NCBI GenBank assembly: GCA_945868845.1
Contig: CAMBMS010000004.1
Coordinates: 62,001 to 126,000 of the forward strand
Direction: 5' to 3'
Length of the DNA: 64,000 nucleotides
Origin: Asaia bogorensis
Lineage (GTDB): Bacteria > Pseudomonadota > Alphaproteobacteria > Acetobacterales > Acetobacteraceae
Positions 23,601 through 54,369 of the stretch are shown in pieces; the first letter of the stretch is position 1, and every line of letters starts with the position of its first letter. Position numbers and translations under genes: made by a program. Below the pieces are notes generated by a model. The model did no database searches and was not told the DNA's origin. It worked only from the letters and a program-made list of their open reading frames with translations.

Positions 23601-25466
23601 ATGAGCCTGCTAGTTATCAACGGCCTGACCCTAAGGATGGGCGGGCGAACCCTGCTGGACCGTGCCGACCTGTCGGTCGAGCCGGGGCGGCGTGTCGGGC
23701 TCGTGGGGCGCAACGGAGCTGGCAAATCCACTCTGCTGCGCTCTATCGCCGGCGAAATCACGCCCGATGGCGGCGAAATCCGCCTGGCTCAGCGCGCACG
23801 CCTGGCGCAGGTGCGCCAAGAAGCGCCGGAAGGCGAGGGCAGTCTTTTAGATGTCGTCCTACAGGGCGATCCCGAGCGGCTGGCTTTACTGGCGGAGGCC
23901 GAAACCGCGGCCCCAGAGAAATTGGCCGAGCTGCATGAACGGCTGTACGCCATCGGCGCCGACAGCGCCCCGGCGCGCGCCGGCGTGATTCTAGCCGGCC
24001 TCGGTTTCGATGCGGCGGCACAGGCGCGGCCGGTGGCGTCGTTCTCCGGCGGTTGGCGCATGCGCGTGGCGTTGGCCGCAGCGCTGTTCGCCAACCCTGA
24101 TATTCTTTTACTTGACGAGCCGACGAACCATCTGGATCTCGAAGCGACTTTGTGGCTGGAAAATTGGTTGTCGCACTTTCCCGGCGCGGCACTGATCGTC
24201 AGCCATGACCGCGCCCTGCTCGACAAGGTCGTGCACGCCATTGCCCATCTGGATCGTGGCAAAATTGCGCTAACCCCAGGCGGCTTCGATGAGTTCGTGC
24301 GTATCAAGACCGAACGTGCTTTGCAGCAAACCCGCACGGCGGAGACGGTGGCGCGGGAACGCGCGCATATCCAGTCCTTCGTCAATCGCTTTCGCGCGCA
24401 GGCGACGAAGGCGCGCCAGGCCCAATCGCGTCTGAAGGCGCTGGCGCGTTTACCGCAGATCGAGGCGGTGATCGAGGATGCGCCGACACGGTTTAACTTT
24501 CCCGAGCCCGCACGCCTATCTCCGCCGATCCTGGCGCTGGATCGCGTTACAGTTGGATATGACGGCATAGAAATTTTACGTGGCCTGTCGCTAACGATCG
24601 ATATGGATGACCGCATCGCGCTTCTAGGCGCGAATGGCAATGGCAAATCCACGCTTGCAAAATTACTGTCCGGGCGGCTGGAGCCGATGTCCGGGGAAAT
24701 TCGGCGTGGTCCGAAACTGCGCGTAGGATATTTTGCGCAGCACCAGACGGATGAATTAGTGATGGGCGACAATCCAATCCACCACATGGCGCGCACCATG
24801 CCACGTGCAACGCCGCCGCATGTGCGCGCCCAGTTGGCACGGTTTGGCCTGGATGCGGATCGCGCCGAAACACCCGTCGCAAATCTATCGGGCGGGGAGA
24901 AGGCACGACTTTTACTTGCCATCGCTACGCGTGACGCGCCGCAATTATTGATCCTAGACGAGCCGACGAACCATCTCGATATCGATGCGCGCGAGGCCTT
25001 GGTGAAAGCGCTGGCTGATTTCGCTGGCGCGGTGTTGCTGATCACGCATGATCCGCATCTGGTGGAGCTGGTTGCCGACCGACTGTGGCTGGTCGGTAAT
25101 GGTAGCGTGAAGCCGTTCGATGGCGATCTGGATGATTACCGAGAGTTGCTCGCAGAAAAATCACGTGCCGCCGCGCGCGGGGAGGCGGCCCAGCCACGCA
25201 AGGACGATCGCCGTGAACGCGCCGAGGCCCGCGCCGCGCTTGCCCCCTTGCGCAAACGCGCCAGGGATGCGGAGGCGCGTATTGCCAACTTGTCGGCCGA
25301 AAAGGTCCGGATCGAGCAGACACTAACAGACCCAGCGCTCTACGCCCCTGGCCGGACCGGCGAAGTCACCGCGGCCCACACCCGCCTCGCCGCCATCACG
25401 CGCGAAGTCGTGGCCGCCGAAAACGACTGGCTAGCGGCGGAGGAAGCGCTGGCGGGGTCAAATTGA
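23601..25466 (+). CDS. ABC-F family ATPase (Uup/YheS-like)
   Basis: A 621-residue soluble protein with two ABC domains and no membrane part. Domain 1 has Walker [10 protein letters not shown], signature SFSGGWRMR and [14 protein letters not shown] charged linker of about 80 residues follows (the P-site tRNA interaction motif region, [17 protein letters not shown]). Domain 2 has [18 protein letters not shown] and [13 protein letters not shown]. The C-terminus is a coiled coil ([18 protein letters not shown]). ABC-F proteins act on ribosomes or, in Uup's case, on DNA/ribosome precursors. The coiled-coil tail fits Uup or YheS; the exact subfamily is not decided. Confidence 0.93.
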
Positions 25467-44433: not shown

Positions 44434-44602
44434 GACGGTTTCCGGGTGTGGCAAGGGAAAAAAGGAATAGTGACTCTTCTTACCAGTGCTGGACGGTGCG
44501 CGGCCAGCCGCCAATTCCCCGTCGCGCGCCGGGATGGCATGCGGCGCCGAGCTGACGCATGATCGGTCCCGCATTGCGACCCGACACGTGTGGGAGAAGA
44601 AA

Positions 44603-46201
44603 ATGAGAGACGATTACATGAAAACCGCCATCCGCACATTCGTGGGCGGCCTCGCCTTATTGGCCACGCAGGCGATGACGCCTGCCTCAGCGCAGGATGT
44701 CGCGGTGGGTGTTTCCGCCGCGCCCACCAGCGTCGATCCGCATTATCATAATCTGACACCCAACAATGCGCTGGCCACGCATATCTTCGGGACCCTGGTA
44801 AGCCGCGACGCCCAGAGCCGCCCAGTGCCGGGGCTCGCCACATCCTGGAAGCTGATCGACGACAATACCTGGGAATTCAAGCTGCGCCCGGGTGTCACTT
44901 TTCATAACGGCGCTCCCTTCACCGCCGAGGACGTGGCCTATTCGCTCGCCCGCCCGCCTTTGGTATTGAATTCCCCCGGCAGCTTCGCCGTGTATTCCCG
45001 CTCCGTGAAGGAGGTGCAGGTGGTGGATGCGATCACCGTGCGGCTGAAGACGGACGGGCTTTACCCGCTGCTACCGGTCGATCTGACAAATGTCCGTATG
45101 GTCTGGCACGGCATTGGCCCGGGTGCCACGACGGAGGATTTCAATTCCGGCAAACACGCCATCGGCACCGGGCCGTTCAAGCTGGCGGCCTATCGCTCCG
45201 GCGATCGTGTGGAGCTGACGCGTAATGAAAGCTACTGGGGTACGAAGCCTCATTGGAAGAATGTTTCTTACCGCTTCCTGCCCAATAATGGTGCACGCGT
45301 CGCGGCGTTGCTGGCCGGCGATGTGTCACTCATTGAGGCGGTGCCGACGACGGAGGTCGCGCAACTGAGCACGAATCCGAAGCTGGTGATTACGGAGGTG
45401 AATTCTACCCGCATCGTGTTTCTGTGGTTCGACCGTTCGCGTACCGGCCCGACTCCCTTTGTGAAAGGTCCGAACGGGGAAACGCTGGACAAGAATCCAC
45501 TGAACGATCTGCGCGTCCGCCAGGCACTGTCGATTGCTATTAACCGCCCAGCGATCGTGGAGCGGGTGATGGAAAACGCTGCCATTGCGTCCGGCCAGCT
45601 GCTGCCGCCGGGGTCGTATTCGCATGTTCCCGGTCTCAACCCGCCGACCTTCGATCCGCAGAAGGCAAAGGCGTTGTTGGCGGAGGCGGGCTATCAGAAT
45701 GGCCTTAGCCTGACCCTGCATGGTCCGAACGACCGCTATGTGAACGATGCTAAGATCATTCAGGCTGTCGGGCAGATGTGGACCCGCATCGGCGTGAAGA
45801 CGCAGGTGGAGGGGATCACTTGGCCCAGCTTTATCGGCCGCGCCAGCAAGCAGGAATTTTCGACATTCCTGCTCGCCTGGGGCACCACCTCGGGCGAGGC
45901 ATCCAATCCGTTGCGGGCATTGATCGCGACGCCGACGCCGGCGAAGGGCTGGGGCACCGCCAATCGCGGCAAATACTCCAACCCGACGGTGGATAATTTG
46001 CTGGAGCGCGCTCTGGCCACCGCCGGTGACGCGGCGCGGGAAAAACTGCTGATCGAGGCGACGAGTATCGCCATGACCGACTTGCCGTTTATTCCGCTGC
46101 ACACGCAGAAGAATATCTGGGCCATGCGTGCCGGCCTGACCTACGTGCCGCGTGTGGATGAGGAAACCAACGTCGCCGAGTTGCGGCCGGCCAGGCAGTA
46201 G
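44603..46201 (+). CDS. ABC transporter substrate-binding protein, family 5 (peptide/nickel type)
   Basis: A 532-residue periplasmic binding protein of the DppA/OppA class. Signal peptide: MRDDYMKTAIRTFVGGLALL, cleavage after ASA (TPASAQDV). Family motifs are GLATSWKLIDDNTWEFKLRP, GVTFHNGAPFTAEDVAYS, GTGPFKLAAYRSGD and NPLNDLRVRQALSIAINRPA. No permease or ATPase gene of this class is near, so it must work with components encoded elsewhere or as an orphan. GGGAG precedes the ATG. It is followed 13 bases later by a CoA-transferase gene. Confidence 0.9.
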   Translation: MRDDYMKTAIRTFVGGLALLATQAMTPASAQDVAVGVSAAPTSVDPHYHNLTPNNALATHIFGTLVSRDAQSRPVPGLATSWKLIDDNTWEFKLRPGVTFHNGAPFTAEDVAYSLARPPLVLNSPGSFAVYSRSVKEVQVVDAITVRLKTDGLYPLLPVDLTNVRMVWHGIGPGATTEDFNSGKHAIGTGPFKLAAYRSGDRVELTRNESYWGTKPHWKNVSYRFLPNNGARVAALLAGDVSLIEAVPTTEVAQLSTNPKLVITEVNSTRIVFLWFDRSRTGPTPFVKGPNGETLDKNPLNDLRVRQALSIAINRPAIVERVMENAAIASGQLLPPGSYSHVPGLNPPTFDPQKAKALLAEAGYQNGLSLTLHGPNDRYVNDAKIIQAVGQMWTRIGVKTQVEGITWPSFIGRASKQEFSTFLLAWGTTSGEASNPLRALIATPTPAKGWGTANRGKYSNPTVDNLLERALATAGDAAREKLLIEATSIAMTDLPFIPLHTQKNIWAMRAGLTYVPRVDEETNVAELRPARQ

Positions 46202-46213
46202 GGAGCGTGCGCA

Positions 46214-47347
46214 ATGAGCGGACCATTGGCGGGGATCAAGGTGATCGAGGTCGGCCAGGCTTTGGCTGGCCCGCTCGCCGGGGTGATCATGGCGGATATG
46301 GGCGCCGACGTGATCAAGGTGGAAAAACCCGATGGCGGCGACGATGCCCGGCTTTGGGGCCCGCCCTTTGTCAATGGCGATTCAGTGATGTTTCACACTA
46401 CCAATCGCAATAAGCGTTCCGTCACGTTGGATATTCAAACGCCGGACGGGGTGGAGAAGTTAAAGGCGCTGGTGCGGAATGCCGATATTCTGATCCAAAA
46501 TCTGCGCCCAGGACTGATGGAAAAATTCGGCATCGGGCCGGACCATCTGCGCGCGGTCAATCCGCGTTTGATCTATTGCAACATCTGGGCGTTTGGCGCT
46601 AACGGACCGATGAAGCTGGCGCCCGGGTTTGATCCGCTGCTACAATCCTTTGGCGCGGTGGTGACATTGACAGGGCGGCCGGAAGATCCGCCGACCTTTT
46701 GCGCCCCGGCGATCAATGACAAGGCAACCGGTATGTGGTGCGTCATCGGCGCGCTCGGTGCCTTGCAGCAGCGCGCACGAACTGGGATCGGCTGCACGAT
46801 CGATACCTCGCTGTTTGAAAGTGCCTGCGCCTGGGTCGAAGGACCGCTGAATAATTTTCAGGTGACCGGCAAGGTACCGGAGCGCCACGGCACCGGAAGC
46901 AACATCATCGTGCCGTACCAGATTTTTACCACCGCCGACCGGCCTTTGTGCATCGCGGCCGGCAATGACCGGCTGTTCGTGAAGATGGCGGACGCGATGG
47001 GGCACTCGGAATGGTATGCTGATCCGCGTTTTTCCGACGGCCGCAAGCGCAACCAACATGGCCCGGCGTTGATCGCTCTGATGAAACCGGTGGTGGCGGC
47101 GAAAACCCGCACCGACTGGTTGGAAATTCTTGGCCGTGTCGGCGTGCCGTGCGCGGCGGTGAACGATATTTCCGAACTTTCCGCGTCCGAACAATTGGCG
47201 GCCGTGGATATGATGCGCGTTTTGCCGGGCAGTGGGCTGCGGGTGGTGGGGTTGCCGATCAGCTTCGATGGGGAACGGCCGCATCCGCAGGGGGATTCAC
47301 CCAATCTGGGGGAGCATGACGGGGAAATATTCGGCACTGGTGATTGA
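46214..47347 (+). CDS. CaiB/BaiF family (type III) CoA transferase
   Basis: A 377-residue enzyme that moves CoA between organic acids. GIKVIEVGQALAGPLAGVIMADMGADVIKVEKPDGGDDAR is the classic N-terminus (positions 7-46), followed by NRNKRSVTLDIQTPDG, then the catalytic Asp region GIGCTIDTSLFESACAWVEG and the C-terminal GVPCAAVNDISEL. GGGAG lies 8 bases before the ATG. It is likely co-transcribed with the binding protein, suggesting uptake and CoA activation of the same carboxylic acid. Confidence 0.92.
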   Translation: MSGPLAGIKVIEVGQALAGPLAGVIMADMGADVIKVEKPDGGDDARLWGPPFVNGDSVMFHTTNRNKRSVTLDIQTPDGVEKLKALVRNADILIQNLRPGLMEKFGIGPDHLRAVNPRLIYCNIWAFGANGPMKLAPGFDPLLQSFGAVVTLTGRPEDPPTFCAPAINDKATGMWCVIGALGALQQRARTGIGCTIDTSLFESACAWVEGPLNNFQVTGKVPERHGTGSNIIVPYQIFTTADRPLCIAAGNDRLFVKMADAMGHSEWYADPRFSDGRKRNQHGPALIALMKPVVAAKTRTDWLEILGRVGVPCAAVNDISELSASEQLAAVDMMRVLPGSGLRVVGLPISFDGERPHPQGDSPNLGEHDGEIFGTGD

Positions 47348-47565
47348 CGCTTTCGTCCTGTGGGCGCTTAAATTTCGGCATGCGACAGACCGTCATTCCC
47401 GTGATGCTGTTTTGGTGCTGCTGGTATTTACCGGAGGCCTAAGTCTTACGCGCATATCGTGATCCCCAAAGTCGCCGCCCTAGGTGGCTTTCGTGTTTCT
47501 GATCCCTGAGAAAAATCCGATTTTTGTCTGTGGCGCAGCTTCTCAACCAGAAGGAAGCCCATGCC
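47348..47565. other. 218-bp intergenic region with a probable terminator
   Basis: AAAGTCGCC (47468-47476) pairs with GGTGGCTTT (47483-47491), with two wobble pairs, followed by CGTGTTTCT: a plausible terminator for the CoA-transferase gene. No other coding signal is convincing in this stretch. Confidence 0.4.
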
Positions 47566-47721
47566 ATGACCACCCAGAACAAATCTGCCGGCATAGATGT
47601 CTGCTCCGGCCCCTCGCTGCCGCGCGCGGAACACCTAGCGCTGGATGCCGCCCGTTTCGTCCCCGCCAAGTCGCTCACCAGCATCGATCAGGTGGCCTCT
47701 CGCCCAGCGGCCGCAGAATAG
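47566..47721 (+). CDS. 51-residue hypothetical protein
   Basis: ORF from MTTQNKSAGIDVCSG to QVASRPAAAE with AAGGAAG about 8 bases upstream of the ATG. Composition is coding-like but low in information. Not recognised; it may be the leftover end of a larger gene. Confidence 0.3.
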   Translation: MTTQNKSAGIDVCSGPSLPRAEHLALDAARFVPAKSLTSIDQVASRPAAAE

Positions 47722-47762
47722 CGTATGCTGTCCTTCAACCCACATCATCGGGAGGAAGAACG

Positions 47763-48143
47763 ATGGCGGACGATTTGAAGGCGATCGAAGAGGTGCTGCA
47801 AACCTATTTCGATGGACTTTACGAAGGCAGCACGGAAAAATTGGCCGCTGCTTTTCACGACAGCGCCGATTTGCGCAGCGTGAACGCCGACGGTTCGCTC
47901 GCCGTGTTGCCAAAGGCGGCGTGGCTCGAGGGGGTGCGGAACCGTCCCTCCGCCGCCAGCCGAAACTTGCTGCGCCGTGATTTTGTCATCAGTCTCGATC
48001 GGTCCAGCTCGACTACGGCGTTCGCGAAGGTAAATTGCCAGATTCCGCCGCGCTATTTTACGGATTACTTAGTGCTGGCGAAATTGCAAGGGGGTTGGAA
48101 GATCGTGTCAAAAACTTTCCACACTGACACGCGCGAGGGTTGA
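47763..48143 (+). CDS. NTF2-like (SnoaL/lumazine-binding-like) protein
   Basis: A 126-residue protein with the NTF2-like fold pattern: an N-terminal helix ADDLKAIEEVLQTYFDGLYE, the strand AAAFHDSADLRSVNADG, and C-terminal strands FTDYLVLAKLQGGWKIVSKT. The general form is that of the Lumazine_bd_2 family, found beside dehydrogenases. GGGAGGAAG is directly upstream of the ATG. It is co-transcribed with the SDR 13 bases downstream. May bind or isomerise a small molecule. Confidence 0.75.
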   Translation: MADDLKAIEEVLQTYFDGLYEGSTEKLAAAFHDSADLRSVNADGSLAVLPKAAWLEGVRNRPSAASRNLLRRDFVISLDRSSSTTAFAKVNCQIPPRYFTDYLVLAKLQGGWKIVSKTFHTDTREG

Positions 48144-48156
48144 GGAGAGAACGCAC

Positions 48157-48936
48157 ATGCGTATGGAAAACAAGATTGGGATTGTTACCGCGGCCGGTTC
48201 CGGCATGGGCCGCGCCGGGGCCACTCGTTTTGCACGCGAGGGCGCGGCGATGGGGGTGGTGGACCTCGACCCGGACGCCGCCGCCGCCGTTGTGAGAACC
48301 ATCACCGCTGCCGGCGGGCGCGCTATCGCGCTGTCCGGCGATCTGCGCGACGAAGCATTCGCGCGCGGGATCGTGCGGCAGACCGCGAATGCTTTTGGTG
48401 GGCTGGATTTTGTTTGGAACCATGTCGGCCATCCCGGTCCCGCCTCTTTCGAGGGGCTGGATATGCGCGACTACGACCAGGCAATGGATCTGAACGTACG
48501 ATCCGCGGTGATCACCACCGAGGCAGCGATCCCAGAATTGCGCGCGCGCGGCGGTGGCGCGGTTTTGTTCACGGCGTCCACCTCGGGTCTCGTCGGCTCG
48601 CCCTTCAGCCCGGTTTATTCGGCGGCAAAATTTGCTGTTGTCGGCATGACGCGCTCGTTGGCAAAACGTTACGGGAGGCAAAAAATCCGCTTCAACGCGA
48701 TTTGTCCCGGATCCATCGACACGCCCATGCTGCGCGTCTTTGTCGCACGGCCCGATCAGCAGCAGACGCATGGCGCCGACAAGGAACAGCTGGTGGTGCA
48801 GCGCGGCGCGCAGAACGCAATGGGCCGCATCGCGCAGCCTGATGAGATCGCCAACGCAGCCCTATTCCTCCTTTCCGACGAAGCTTCTTTCGTTACCGGG
48901 TCGATCCTCGCGGTGGATGGCGGTAGTACAGCCTGA
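48157..48936 (+). CDS. short-chain dehydrogenase/reductase
   Basis: A 259-residue classical SDR. Rossmann motif TAAGSGMGRAGA (a TGxxxGxG variant with Ala for the first Gly), VDLD for the cofactor acidic residue (suggesting NAD+ preference), catalytic Ser in TASTSG, Tyr-x3-Lys in VYSAAK and the C-terminal VDGGSTA. NAG is replaced by NHVG (DFVWNHVGHPG). Substrate unknown. Together with the NTF2-like protein it forms a two-gene unit. Confidence 0.9.
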   Translation: MRMENKIGIVTAAGSGMGRAGATRFAREGAAMGVVDLDPDAAAAVVRTITAAGGRAIALSGDLRDEAFARGIVRQTANAFGGLDFVWNHVGHPGPASFEGLDMRDYDQAMDLNVRSAVITTEAAIPELRARGGGAVLFTASTSGLVGSPFSPVYSAAKFAVVGMTRSLAKRYGRQKIRFNAICPGSIDTPMLRVFVARPDQQQTHGADKEQLVVQRGAQNAMGRIAQPDEIANAALFLLSDEASFVTGSILAVDGGSTA

Positions 48937-49199: not shown

Positions 49200-50456
49200 A
49201 TGATAAAGCGTTCACTACTTAGCCTAGGAGTGGCCTTCCTAGCGGCTGGTCTGCTGTTTGGTGCTGGTGCTGCGATGGCGCAGAACACCATCAAGATTGC
49301 CCTGATTGCGCCGTTTTCCGGCCCTGTCGCCGCCCAAGGCGATGCCTGGCTGAAGATGCTGAGCTATGCGATGAGCAACACCAACGCCCGAGGCGGCGCG
49401 CTCGGTAAGAAATTGGAGCTGGTGACCTTCGACGACAAATTCCAGCCGGCCGAGGCCCTCATCGCGCTGAAGGCGGCGACCGATCAGAATATTTCCATCA
49501 TTATCGGCGGGGTAGGCTCCAACGTCGCCGCGGCGATGATCGACGGCATAGCCAAGCATAATGCACGCAACCCGAAGAATCAGGCCGTCTATCTGAACGT
49601 GTCCGCGCTGACCACGGAATTCACCGAGGAGAAATGCGACTTCTGGCATTTTCGCTTCTCTGCCAATGTCACCATGCGCGTTGCCACCATGATCCGGGGT
49701 ATGCCGCAGGACGTCAAAAGTGTCTTCCTGATGAACCAGGACTATGCCTATGGTCAGGGCGTCGTCGCGGACACCAAGAAGTTCCTCGCGCAGTACCGTC
49801 CAGACATCAAGGTCGTGGGTGAGGAAATGATCCCGCTGATGAAGATCAAGGATTTTTCCTCCTACGCCACCAAGCTTCAGGCCTCCGGCGCGCAGGCGCT
49901 GCTGACCTCCAACTGGGGCCAGGACTTCAACCTGCTGATGAAAGCAAGCAACGAGGCGGGGCTGGATCTTAAATTTTACACATTCAGTGCGCATCTGAAC
50001 GGCGCGCCGACGGCGATGGGCGAAGGCGGCGCCAATCGTGCGATAGCGGTGCTGGAAGGCCATGACAACATGGGCGCCGAGATGAACAACGCGGCGGCGG
50101 AAGAGTGGGTGAAGAACTGGCGCGCCACTGGTGCCACCTTTGACTTTCCGTGGGTCAACTTTCAGACCACGTTCGAGATGCTGGCTGGCGCGATCAATAA
50201 GGCTGGTTCCACCGAAGCCCTGAAGGTGGCCCTGGCGCTGGAAGGCATCCAGATGAAGGACGTCTATGGCAAAGTGAACATCATGCGGAAGGAGGATCAT
50301 CAGATCCTGCAACCTTACTACACGGCGTTGTTCACTAAGCCGGTGAAGTATGATTCCGAAAAAACCGGCCTGGGTTGGAAAACCTTGACCGCCGCGACCA
50401 CAGAACAACTGACCTTCCCGACCTCCTGCAAGATGAAGCGGCCAAGCGGCGCCTGA
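49200..50456 (+). CDS. ABC transporter substrate-binding protein (branched-chain amino acid type)
   Basis: A 418-residue periplasmic protein of the Peripla_BP_6 (LivJ) class. Signal peptide MIKRSLLSLGVAFLAAGLLF, cleavage after AMA. Mature start QNTIKIALIAPFSGPVAAQG; RGGALGKKLELVTFDDKFQP is the typical second segment. AGGAG is 6 bases before the ATG; the longer open frame upstream is not used. It heads the transporter operon. Liv-type systems of this class often carry aromatic or other acids, so the substrate is uncertain. Confidence 0.92.
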   Translation: MIKRSLLSLGVAFLAAGLLFGAGAAMAQNTIKIALIAPFSGPVAAQGDAWLKMLSYAMSNTNARGGALGKKLELVTFDDKFQPAEALIALKAATDQNISIIIGGVGSNVAAAMIDGIAKHNARNPKNQAVYLNVSALTTEFTEEKCDFWHFRFSANVTMRVATMIRGMPQDVKSVFLMNQDYAYGQGVVADTKKFLAQYRPDIKVVGEEMIPLMKIKDFSSYATKLQASGAQALLTSNWGQDFNLLMKASNEAGLDLKFYTFSAHLNGAPTAMGEGGANRAIAVLEGHDNMGAEMNNAAAEEWVKNWRATGATFDFPWVNFQTTFEMLAGAINKAGSTEALKVALALEGIQMKDVYGKVNIMRKEDHQILQPYYTALFTKPVKYDSEKTGLGWKTLTAATTEQLTFPTSCKMKRPSGA

Positions 50457-50631: not shown

Positions 50632-51579
50632 ATGGAGGTAATTCTTATCTCCCTGTTGAACGGCTTCGTCTATGGCATGTTGCTGTTCATGCTAGCGAGC
50701 GGTCTGACTCTGATTTTTTCCATGATGGGCGTGTTGAATTTCGCCCATGCCGGCATCTACATGATCGGTGCCTATGTGGCGTTTGAAAGTAGCCGTCTGA
50801 TTGGCTTTTGGGCAGCGCTGCTTATCGCGCCCCTGGTCTGCGCTGTGATCGGCGCGGCGATCGAGATCTACGGCCTGCGGCGGACGCACCGTAACGGCCA
50901 TATCGCCGAGCTGCTGTTCACCTTCGGGCTGTTCTTCATCATCGAGCGTGGCGTCCAAATGATTTGGGGCATGCTGCCGGTACCGTATCGCGTGCCGATG
51001 GCCTTGGATTTCCCACTGTTCAGTCTTTACGGCATCAATTTTCCAGCTTATCGGGCCTTCATGCTGTTGATCGCTGGCGGCATGTTGCTGGCGATCTGGC
51101 TGCTGCTGACGCGCACGCGCATCGGGCTGATCATCCAGGCGGCGCTGACGCATCCCAATATGGTCAGCTCGCTCGGCCATAACGTGCCGCGCGTGTTCAC
51201 CATCGTGTTTGCCGGCGGCTGCTATCTCGCCGGCCTCGCCGGGGTGATCGGCGGCAACTATCAGATGACGGAGCCTTCGATGGCCGCCGCGCTGGGGCCG
51301 ATCGTGTTCGTGGTGGTGGTCCTTGGCGGGTTGGGATCGCTGGGCGGCTGTTTCGTCGCCTCCATCATCGTCGGTATGCTGCAGACCTTCGCGGTGGTAG
51401 TCGATGCGTCCGCCGCCAGCGTGCTGGGTGGTCTGGTATCCTGGATCGGCACGTCGAATCTGCTGGGTGAAATCCTCTCCGTGCCCGTCTCGCGCGTCGG
51501 GCCGTTGCTGCCCTACGCGATGATGGTGCTGATGCTGTTGTTCCGCCCTCGCGGCCTGATGGGGACACGTGACACATGA
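50632..51579 (+). CDS. livH: branched-chain amino acid ABC transporter permease LivH-type
   Basis: A 315-residue integral membrane protein with about 8 helices. SGLTLIFSMMGVLNFAHAGIYMIGAY (start near residue 24) is the classic LivH signature, with GLRRTHRNGHIAELLFTFGL and a C-terminal LLPYAMMVLMLLFRPRGLMG. The ATG at 50632 (MEVILISLL) is chosen over a start 12 codons earlier, which would add a charged, non-family segment. Overlaps livM by four bases. Confidence 0.93.
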   Translation: MEVILISLLNGFVYGMLLFMLASGLTLIFSMMGVLNFAHAGIYMIGAYVAFESSRLIGFWAALLIAPLVCAVIGAAIEIYGLRRTHRNGHIAELLFTFGLFFIIERGVQMIWGMLPVPYRVPMALDFPLFSLYGINFPAYRAFMLLIAGGMLLAIWLLLTRTRIGLIIQAALTHPNMVSSLGHNVPRVFTIVFAGGCYLAGLAGVIGGNYQMTEPSMAAALGPIVFVVVVLGGLGSLGGCFVASIIVGMLQTFAVVVDASAASVLGGLVSWIGTSNLLGEILSVPVSRVGPLLPYAMMVLMLLFRPRGLMGTRDT

Positions 51580-52901
51580 TGGGCGCCGCCGTGACCCGAA
51601 TCGAAACCACACCGACCGCGCAACCGGCCTATGCCGGGCGCCAAATGGTGCTATGGATCGTGCTGCTGGTGGCGGCCATCGTGCTGCCTTGGTTGTTCTA
51701 CGATTGGACTACCGACCGGCATTCGGGCTTTCTGCTCACCATGCTCAGCCAGATGGGCATGATGATCATCTTCGCCCTGTCGTACAATATGCTGATGGGC
51801 CAGGCGGGGCTGCTGTCCTTTGGCCATGCAGTGTTCTTCGGCCTGGGCGGCTATTGTACCATCCATCTGCTGAACGCAGCGGAGAAAGGCGGCTTCCCCA
51901 TACCGATGGAGATCATGCCGCTGTTCGCCGGTGCCACGGGCTTAGTGTTCGGCATCGTCTTCGGCTACATGGCCACCAAGCAGCGCGCCATCGCCTTTGC
52001 CATGATCACCATGGGCATCGGCGAACTGATCGTCGCCGCGGCGATTATGTTCCATCATTTCTTCGGCGGCGAGAGCGGCGTCAGCGCCAATCGGATGATC
52101 GAGAACAGCCTGTTTGGCCTTTCCTATGCCTCATCCGAGGAGGTGTATTATCTGATCCTGGGCTGGATGGTGCTTGCAAGCCTGGGTATGCTGTTCCTCA
52201 CTCGGACGCCGCTGGGCGCCATGGCGAACGCGGCGAGGGATAATTTCGAGCGAGCGCAATTCATGGGCTACGACCCGCGCCGCATTCGATTCCTACAATT
52301 TTCCCTGTCTGGCTTCTTTGCCGGGATCGGCGGCGGGCTCTATGCCATCACCTATGAAATCGTCACTTTCGATGCCGTTTCGGGGGCATTGTCGGCGAAC
52401 GTGGTGCTGATGACCTATATCGGTGGAGCTACCATCTTCTATGGCCCGATCCTGGGCGCCACCCTGATCACCCTGATGCAGAGCGGCCTCAGCCTACTGT
52501 CCAACTCCTGGCATATCTATGTCGGCGTGTTGTTCGTTGGCATGGTCACCTTCGCCCCCAGCGGCCTCGCAGGCATGATCGATGCGCACGGCCCAGTGGC
52601 ACGCGCCGGACGGATGCGGCAACTGATCGTGCCCTATATTCGCCTACTGATCCCAGGCCTGGCCGTGCTGGCCGGCTTTGTCGCGCTGGTGGAGCTGATG
52701 GCTTTCCTCACTATCGGCGCCGCACAGGGCAAGAAAATGCCGGGCTTTCTAGCCGTACTCGCCGATGGCGGGGTCATGGTGCCATGGCTGACCGCCGCGG
52801 TGCTGCTGGTGGCCGGCGGTATCTGGCTGCACTTTGAGATCCGGGGATTTGCTCGCCTGTGGGACGACCTCACCGCCGATCTGAAGGAGAGGAGCGTGTG
52901 A
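51576..52901 (+). CDS. livM: branched-chain amino acid ABC transporter permease LivM-type
   Basis: A 441-residue membrane protein. The core has the family sequence NMLMGQAGLLSFGHAVFFGLGGY, TKQRAIAFAMITMGIGELI and FLTRTPLGAMANAARDNFER. The last 110 residues, with two or three extra hydrophobic stretches (LIPGLAVLAGFVALVELMAF), go beyond the usual LivM end. Starts ATG-ATG overlapping livH and ends overlapping livG by one base. Confidence 0.92.
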   Translation: MMGAAVTRIETTPTAQPAYAGRQMVLWIVLLVAAIVLPWLFYDWTTDRHSGFLLTMLSQMGMMIIFALSYNMLMGQAGLLSFGHAVFFGLGGYCTIHLLNAAEKGGFPIPMEIMPLFAGATGLVFGIVFGYMATKQRAIAFAMITMGIGELIVAAAIMFHHFFGGESGVSANRMIENSLFGLSYASSEEVYYLILGWMVLASLGMLFLTRTPLGAMANAARDNFERAQFMGYDPRRIRFLQFSLSGFFAGIGGGLYAITYEIVTFDAVSGALSANVVLMTYIGGATIFYGPILGATLITLMQSGLSLLSNSWHIYVGVLFVGMVTFAPSGLAGMIDAHGPVARAGRMRQLIVPYIRLLIPGLAVLAGFVALVELMAFLTIGAAQGKKMPGFLAVLADGGVMVPWLTAAVLLVAGGIWLHFEIRGFARLWDDLTADLKERSV

Positions 52902-53653
52902 TGGCCATTGCCGCCCTCAGCCTCAGTAATGTCTGCAAGAGTTTCGGCCCGACGGAGATCATCCGGGGGGTTGATCTGGACATTGCCAGCGGCGAACGAC
53001 ACGCCATCATCGGCCCGAACGGCGCGGGCAAGACAACATTGTTCAATCTGATCAGCGGGCGCTTTCCCGTTTCCTCGGGCAGTATTTCGCTGAACGGCAC
53101 CCGCATCGACGAGATGGCGCCACAGGAAATCAATCGCCTGGGACTTTCGCGCAGCTTTCAGATCACCTCGATCTTCCATCGCATGACGGTGTTCGAGAAT
53201 ATCCGCTGCGCGCTGCTCTGGTCCCAAGGCTATCGCTATTCGTTCTGGTCGCCGCTATGGGCGCAGAAGGTGCTGAACGAACGCGCTGACCAATTGCTCG
53301 ATGAACTGAACCTGCTGTCGCGGCGCGATTTGCAGGCTGGGCTGCTGTCCTATGCCGAGCAGCGGGCGCTAGAAATCGGCATCACCATCGCTGGCGGCGC
53401 CACCGTGATCCTGCTCGATGAGCCCACCGCCGGCATGAGCCATAGCGAGACGGAGTATGCGGTGGCGATGATCCAGCGAGTGACGGAAGGAAAAACTCTA
53501 GTCATGGTGGAGCACGACATGCGCGTGGTGTTCGGACTCGCCAATACCATCACCGTGGTGGTCTATGGACAGGTGATTGCGTCCGGAAAGCCGGAAGACA
53601 TCCGCGCCAACCGCGCGGTGCAGGAAGCCTATCTAGGAGCTTTGAGCGAGTGA
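52901..53653 (+). CDS. livG: branched-chain amino acid ABC transporter ATP-binding protein LivG-type
   Basis: A 250-residue ATPase. Walker A GPNGAGKTT, Q-loop region SRSFQITSIF, signature-equivalent LLSYAEQRALEIGI (the usual LSYG form shortened to LSYAEQ), Walker B VILLDEPTAGMSHSETE and H-loop MVEHDMRVVF. Start ATG at 52901 with GGAGAGGAG upstream, directly on the livM stop. Partner of LivF in the heterodimeric ATPase. Confidence 0.94.
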   Translation: MAIAALSLSNVCKSFGPTEIIRGVDLDIASGERHAIIGPNGAGKTTLFNLISGRFPVSSGSISLNGTRIDEMAPQEINRLGLSRSFQITSIFHRMTVFENIRCALLWSQGYRYSFWSPLWAQKVLNERADQLLDELNLLSRRDLQAGLLSYAEQRALEIGITIAGGATVILLDEPTAGMSHSETEYAVAMIQRVTEGKTLVMVEHDMRVVFGLANTITVVVYGQVIASGKPEDIRANRAVQEAYLGALSE

Positions 53654-54369
53654 TGGCAAGCGATGTGGCAAACATGCTGGAAGTGCGGGACCTGCATGCC
53701 TATTACGGCAAGAGCCATATCCTGCATGGCGTGAACATTGATGTTCGTGAAGGCGAGATCGTGAGCCTGCTGGGGCGCAATGGCGTCGGCCGTTCCACCA
53801 CCTGCAAGGCGATCATGGGGCTGGTGGAGCCGCAAGGTCACGTGCGCTTTCGCGGTACGGAACTGGCCGGGCTGCGCACCGATCTCGTCTCCCGCGCGGG
53901 CATTGGCTATGTGCCGGAGGACCGGCAGATTTTCCCGACCCTCACGGTGCGGCAGAATCTGGAACTAGGCCTACGCAAGTCCGGCGTGTTTGGGCGCTGG
54001 AGTTTCGATGACATCTACAAGCTGTTTCCCAACCTGGGGGACCGGCAGAACAATACCGCCGGGGTGCTCTCGGGCGGCGAGCAGCAAATGCTCACCATGT
54101 GCCGTACATTAATGGGCGACCCCGACCTCATCCTGATCGACGAGCCAACCGAGGGCCTGGCGCCACGACTGGTGGAACAGGTGGGCGTGCTGTTGGAGGA
54201 AATCGCCAAGCGCGGCATCTCCATCTTGCTGGTCGAACAAAAACTTACCATCGCGCTGAAAATCTCCAAACGCCTCTATGTCATGGGCCACGGCCAGATC
54301 GTGTTCGACGGCACCCCCGCCGAACTGGACGCCAACACCGCCATCCGCCAGGAGTGGTTGGAGGTTTGA
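53653..54369 (+). CDS. livF: branched-chain amino acid ABC transporter ATP-binding protein LivF-type, Walker A Lys to Arg
   Basis: A 238-residue ATPase. Q-loop VPEDRQIFPTLTV, signature LSGGEQQML, Walker B LILIDEPTEGLAP and H-loop LVEQKLTIALK (Gln for His) are present. The P-loop reads GRNGVGRSTT, with Arg47 (codon CGT) where Lys is expected. A GTG at 53650 in the same frame is also possible, but the ATG touching the livG stop is preferred. Last gene of the transporter operon, followed by a terminator hairpin. Confidence 0.92.
   Translation: MASDVANMLEVRDLHAYYGKSHILHGVNIDVREGEIVSLLGRNGVGRSTTCKAIMGLVEPQGHVRFRGTELAGLRTDLVSRAGIGYVPEDRQIFPTLTVRQNLELGLRKSGVFGRWSFDDIYKLFPNLGDRQNNTAGVLSGGEQQMLTMCRTLMGDPDLILIDEPTEGLAPRLVEQVGVLLEEIAKRGISILLVEQKLTIALKISKRLYVMGHGQIVFDGTPAELDANTAIRQEWLEV

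Follow-up and report, generated by a model that had tools for sequence, protein, structure and literature searches.

In the excerpts of the literature cited here, each ATP site of an ATP-binding cassette (ABC) transporter is described as being composed of the Walker A, Walker B, Q-loop and H-loop motifs of one subunit together with the signature motif of its partner (PMC7756269, PMC6703430), and several transporters, including Pdr5, TAP, MRP1 and CFTR, are described as having one canonical and one altered site (PMC7756269, PMC8403869). In the human sterol exporter ABCG5/ABCG8, the Walker A motif GSSGCGRAS of ABCG8, with Arg in place of Lys, is combined with the altered signature ISTGE of ABCG5 in a site given as inactive, the other site being sufficient (PMC7756502, PMC8403869, PMC7756269); the P-loop Ser of ABCG8 is also lost and ATP is said to be bound poorly at that site (PMC7756502, PMC8403869). 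A degenerate site has been noted in print for RbsA of Bacillus subtilis as well (PMC11466899). Here we analyzed a 64,000-nucleotide stretch of Asaia bogorensis DNA (assembly GCA_945868845.1, contig CAMBMS010000004.1, positions 62,001 to 126,000 of the forward strand; below, the window), in which the LivF ATPase of an operon of the LIV/HAAT importer family has Arg at the position of the Walker A Lys. We consider it likely that this operon encodes a branched-chain amino acid-type importer in which one site hydrolyses ATP, while hydrolysis is impaired at the other, a conserved site where ATP probably can still bind.

The operon has the same gene set and order as the LivFGHM-LivJ/K system (LIV-I/HAAT) of Escherichia coli. 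Its LivF P-loop reads GRNGVGRSTT, with a CGT codon at the Lys position, and its LivG has the normal GPNGAGKTT, both as given in the preliminary description of this DNA (coordinates in Table 1). Apart from Walker A, LivG is canonical at the Q-loop (Gln), Walker B (DE) and H-loop (His), and deviates at the signature only, which reads LSYAE and thus has Ala in place of the second Gly of LSGGQ, a change that the preliminary description had not mentioned. LivG and LivF are usually viewed as forming a heterodimer in this family. If they pair here too, the LivG signature completes the LivF site, and Arg and Ala therefore stand in one and the same composite site; the altered catalytic motifs are then confined to that site and the other one is canonical. 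The sequences thereby back the earlier proposal of asymmetry, with one of the two sites degenerate, and extend it to the LivG half of that site. A phmmer search with the window's LivM matched no PDB chain at E 0.1. In E. coli, LivF has an H-loop Gln (VEQN) and a Q-loop Glu as in the window LivF, but keeps the Walker A Lys, and the LivG signature LAYGD is off-consensus as in the window, but with the Gly kept.

As in ABCG5/ABCG8, the window pair combines a Lys-to-Arg change in Walker A with an altered partner signature in one composite site, the other site being predicted to be the active one. The two systems differ in that the P-loop Ser is lost in ABCG8 but kept in the window LivF, and in that ISTGE alters the first Gly of the signature whereas LSYAE alters the second. 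ABCG5/ABCG8 is moreover an exporter, with transmembrane domains that we take to be unrelated to the permeases of the window. Pdr5 has Cys for the Walker A Lys, and many exporters of its kind have a changed Walker B Glu, whereas LivF of the window keeps that Glu. Among importers, the second nucleotide-binding domain (NBD2) of E. coli RbsA (CUT2) has the Walker A motif GLMGAGRTEL, again with Arg, together with a Q-loop Glu within the same Glu-Asp-Arg run as in LivF, and it lacks an H-loop His; the NBD1 signature is off-consensus (LSIGDQQ) but keeps the second Gly, unlike that of LivG in the window. The RbsA domains are fused in one chain, whereas livG and livF are separate genes. In a FastTree tree of 48 rows RbsA NBD2 fell outside both of the LivF Arg clades described below, with weak support for its own position. 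The RbsC permease presumably belongs to BPD_transp_2, like LivH and LivM of the window.

For a survey of relatives, genome contigs were scanned by LivF similarity alone, and 80 of at least 555 confirmed candidates were kept. All 80, which were 68–94% identical to the window LivF, had Arg at the Walker A position. In 100 Arg LivFs (97 having a LivG with Ala or Ser and 3 without a linked LivG) the Arg codon was CGC in 47, CGG in 28, CGT in 20 and CGA in 5. The dN/dS ratio of livF against five relatives was 0.05–0.14, and the values for livF and livG span 0.05–0.20, one of the six pairs (L079) being saturated. Because the Arg codons vary synonymously and livF has a low dN/dS, the Arg site is a maintained state and not decay.

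We also determined how widespread the Arg form was in 249 evenly drawn Pseudomonadota genomes. A DNA pattern for the Arg motif gave 33 sites in 26 genomes; its backwards control gave 20 matches in 20 genomes, showing that the pattern is not specific by itself, and every site was therefore read individually. LivF accounted for 27 sites in 20 genomes. Two of the six other sites had no open reading frame (ORF) carrying an ABC-like Walker A. The remaining four were in ORFs of 587–699 residues from one family of genomes (L133–L136), having an ABC-like Walker A, GRNGAGRST, again with Arg for Lys. The corresponding Lys pattern matched 223 of the 249 genomes but also catches ATPases other than LivF, and a LivF-signature pattern matched 31 of 58 genomes of Alphaproteobacteria. 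Seven of 126 distinct alphaproteobacterial LivFs had Arg, two of them from the window's own genome, in a census that takes in LivFs of that genome which the search pattern does not cover and leaves out a few Lys copies counted under other loci. Totals of Arg to Lys in our set are not frequencies, because most Arg rows were found by similarity to the window, and some later loci skip Arg copies already in the set. The 80 kept records include metagenome-assembled genomes titled Deltaproteobacteria and Rokuibacteriota, and the window's Arg clade may thus reach other phyla if their binning is right. Among the matches listed in a search of open-licence papers we recognised no report of Arg at Walker A of LivF, which is weak evidence of absence as subscription papers lay mostly outside that scope.

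The partner LivG was next compared, with LivF called at 200 bits or more and LivG at 180 bits or more, each with a 60-bit lead; each group of LivFs without differences over most of the domain was counted as one. This gave 322 distinct LivFs, of which 282 had a linked LivG and 40 did not and were left out of the pairs. A linked LivG was present for 77 of the 80 kept Arg relatives, and its second signature Gly was Ala or Ser in all 77. Over the whole set, the fourth signature residue of LivG was Ala in 94, Ser in 3 and Gly in 13 of the 110 pairs with Arg, and Gly in 162, Ala in 7 and Lys, Pro and Ile in one each of the 172 pairs with Lys. The genome of the window itself has two Arg LivFs paired with LSYAE and LAYSE, and Lys LivFs (L003, L004, L006, L008 and L010) paired with Gly signatures. 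In the 97 Arg pairs with Ala or Ser, a set picked by that very signature, the opposite site was intact throughout: LivG had the Walker A Lys in 95 of 95 readable cases and Walker B DE and H-loop His in 97 of 97, and LivF had SGGE in 97 of 97. All 97 LivFs also had the P-loop Ser/Thr, one A-loop Tyr and the Walker B Asp-Glu; the residue following the Arg, Ser in the window, was Ser in 94 and Thr in 3.

Two trees were made with the Arg column excluded, a FastTree tree of 163 rows at below 80% identity (36 of 112 Arg, 127 of 131 Lys) and an IQ-TREE tree of 71 rows, comprising the same 36 Arg rows and 35 hand-picked near Lys rows. In the latter, the 28 rows of the window's group (class I) and the 8 rows of another group (class II) each formed one clade, with support of 100/99, set apart among Lys LivFs; none of 200 bootstrap trees had all Arg rows on one side of a branch, and the 163-row tree likewise required two changes to Arg. 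The one-clade status of the 97 Ala/Ser pairs is thus seen on 28 representatives, and that of the Gly pairs on 8. Judged from these trees, the Arg state has two origins, and the alignment of homologues called for earlier has Arg as a lineage-wide state. The other Arg LivF of the window's genome, in a second operon (L002 and L014, C27:30503-31959; GRNGSGRSTT, partner signature LAYSE), was the first branch of the window's clade in both trees and in the 48-row tree. When the LivF of L002 was searched against 150 genomes of the order, 18 had matches at E 1e-70, and the 19 loci read comprised 8 Arg LivFs (one being that of the window) with Ala and 11 Lys LivFs with Gly, with no intermediate near the base of the window's clade among these 19. 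The sampled class II LivFs (L122, L126, L128–L132, L138, L140, L290–L292 and L323; Q-loop mostly CPEERG) come from genomes outside the class of the window.

Of the two LivF features that the preliminary description took as signs of degeneracy, the H-loop Gln is indeed present, but we dropped it as evidence, since Gln is the norm of the LivF family: it was found in 183 of 209 Lys LivFs (the others having Lys in 25 and His in 1) and in 112 of 112 Arg LivFs plus L323. The 25 LivFs with an H-loop Lys (e.g. L005 and L158; VDKHP) are odder than those with Gln. The Q-loop Glu was also the commonest state, with 176 of the 209. As Lys LivFs mostly have the H-loop Gln and Q-loop Glu, in much of the family the LivF site was already off-consensus before the change to Arg.

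We propose the following mechanism. The site formed by Walker A, Walker B and His of LivG with LSGGE of LivF, being canonical, would perform hydrolysis, and the site formed by the Walker A Arg, Q-loop Glu and H-loop Gln of LivF with LSYAE of LivG would be degenerate, probably keeping ATP, which would aid closure of the dimer, with slow or no hydrolysis; about one ATP would then be spent per transport cycle. Retention of ATP is preferred because ABCG8, which binds ATP poorly, has lost the P-loop Ser that the window LivF keeps. A wider proposal, plausible to us but held tentatively, is that LIV/HAAT importers are ancestrally asymmetric and that at least two lineages have become obligate single-site transporters, that of the window by changing both halves of one site; the result would be an importer counterpart of ABCG5/ABCG8, reached independently, with a fixed, non-hydrolysing ATP holding the dimer.

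Several findings weigh against the proposed mechanism. The Walker B Glu, lost at many degenerate sites, is retained in 110 of 110 paired Arg LivFs, and the Arg may change little, since most Lys LivFs already have the H-loop Gln and Q-loop Glu. Seven Lys LivFs are paired with Ala and three with other LivG residues at the Gly position; one such case, L007, is from the window's own genome and pairs a Lys LivF with LTNKQ, so that loss of the LivG Gly does not need the LivF Arg. On the trees, the joint change of LivF and LivG in class I is one evolutionary event, with a single clade origin. In class II the partner signatures (LPYGR, LAYGR, MPYGR or similar) keep the Gly and have Pro or Ala for Ser in 13 of 13 pairs, and as Lys relatives show the same types of signature, that change is not tied to Arg. 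An independent-pairs test (FastTree) gave 2 pairs, with the LivG change accompanying Arg in a mean of 0.8, the reverse never and no difference in 1.2; with two independent pairs no significance for co-evolution is possible. Signatures far from LSGGQ (LTNKQ, LTVAG, LTLAG and LPVAG) were also seen in the Lys systems L018, L197, L253 and L281, with the Walker A Lys of LivF unchanged.

The foremost alternative is that ATP binding has been lost altogether at the Arg site, as proposed for ABCG8 with its displaced P loop, leaving that site purely structural. We find this unlikely, as ABCG8 has lost the next Ser/Thr too (GSSGCGRAS), whereas Ser/Thr is retained in the 97 window-type LivFs, as are the P-loop glycines, Asn and Thr. 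Somewhat less probable again is a neutral, tolerated swap, in which Arg would stand in for Lys and both sites would still hydrolyse ATP; Lys to Arg is a conservative change, the Walker B Glu is invariant, and most Lys LivFs presumably function although they have no H-loop His, but the sampled trees have no reversion to Lys within the window's clade, though Lys surrounds it, and the signature of the partner LivG has lost its Gly. Pseudogenisation of the transporter genes is very improbable: loss of a catalytic residue is usually an early sign of it, but here the five-gene operon is complete, the dN/dS ratios of livF and livG are low and the predicted fold is confident, the AlphaFold2 model of LivF having a mean pLDDT of 91.3 and 1ji0 as its best match (Z 34.3, root mean square deviation 2.0 over 235 residues). 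A sequencing or assembly error at the Arg codon, named earlier as what would refute the observation, has nothing in its favour and is refuted by the 80 other genome records, all of which have Arg, and by the use of four synonymous codons. We thus retain the reading of one hydrolysing and one impaired, probably ATP-holding site.

Table 1. Genes of the operon and motifs of its two ATPases, in coordinates of the window.
Feature	Position	Strand	Remarks
Periplasmic substrate-binding protein (Peripla_BP_6)	49200..50456	+	Pfam E 2.3e-59; ORF from 49098, ATG 49200 likely by start context
livH-type permease (BPD_transp_2)	50632..51579	+	Pfam E 2.2e-29
livM-type permease	51576..52901	+	Pfam E 1.1e-32, residues 53-323 of 441; C-terminal stretch after 323 unmatched
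livG ATPase	52901..53653	+	Pfam ABC_tran (PF00005 1.4e-26) and BCA_ABC_TP_C (PF12399); motifs
LivG Walker A GPNGAGKTT	53012..53038	+	Canonical
LivG signature LSYAE	53345..53359	+	Ala codon GCC 53354-53356 in place of second Gly; expected opposite LivF Walker A
LivG Walker B TVILLDEP	53402..53425	+	DE present
LivG H-loop His	53513..53515	+	Canonical
livF ATPase with Arg Walker A	53653..54369	+	PF00005 6.5e-29; intact ORF
LivF Walker A GRNGVGRSTT	53773..53802	+	Arg codon CGT 53791-53793
LivF Q-loop Glu	53917..53919	+	Commonest state in family
LivF signature LSGGE	54067..54081	+	Canonical; expected to complete LivG site
LivF Walker B DLILIDEP	54124..54147	+	Catalytic Glu kept
LivF H-loop Gln	54238..54240	+	Codon CAA; family norm

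The operon comprises five complete genes in the order binding protein, LivH, LivM, LivG and LivF, and has the HAAT/LIV gene content: LivG and LivF each carry an ABC ATPase domain and are accompanied by two BPD_transp_2 permeases and one Peripla_BP_6 protein. The livF gene encodes 238 residues from its ATG to the stop codon, and its start overlaps the stop of livG by one base. LivF scored 173.4 bits against the E. coli LivF equivalog NF008626 (curated cut-off 441) and 223.8 bits against the urea transporter UrtE TIGR03410 (cut-off 285.8), and LivG and LivF both scored too low for the NCBIfam families of E. coli LivF/LivG and UrtE/UrtD; the names LivF and LivG are therefore used at family level only. 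Three NCBIfam matches of the binding protein were all below cut-off and no substrate was assigned from them, nor did the neighbours give a substrate clue, the most widespread ORF cluster, apart from the operon region and ORFs antisense to that region, occurring in 9 loci (58 loci over 9 kb, and the window). The 118 residues of LivM past its Pfam match look hydrophobic by eye, perhaps forming extra membrane helices. Upstream, at 44486-48936, the ORFs read as a peptide-type binding protein, a CaiB/BaiF-like CoA-transferase, a small SnoaL-like protein and an SDR reductase. An ATPase at 23601-25466, a candidate RbsA-like protein by the position of its match, was ruled out as both its Walker A motifs have Lys; we take it to be an ABC-F protein. 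No CUT2 ATPase was found in the three stretches of the window's own genome that were examined.

As read from the motifs, bacterial amino-acid-type importers of this widespread group, with their one altered site, probably depend on the other ATP site alone, much as ABCG5/ABCG8 does. This bears on the ATP cost of importers and on the role of dead sites, which have been studied mainly in exporters. With separate, swappable ATPase genes, one site of which both halves are changed in nature, and relatives of the Lys/Gly type encoded by the same genome, these transporters would be a convenient test system for degenerate sites. For annotation, Arg at Walker A of LivF should be regarded as normal for some lineages, and Gln at the H-loop of LivF as the rule.
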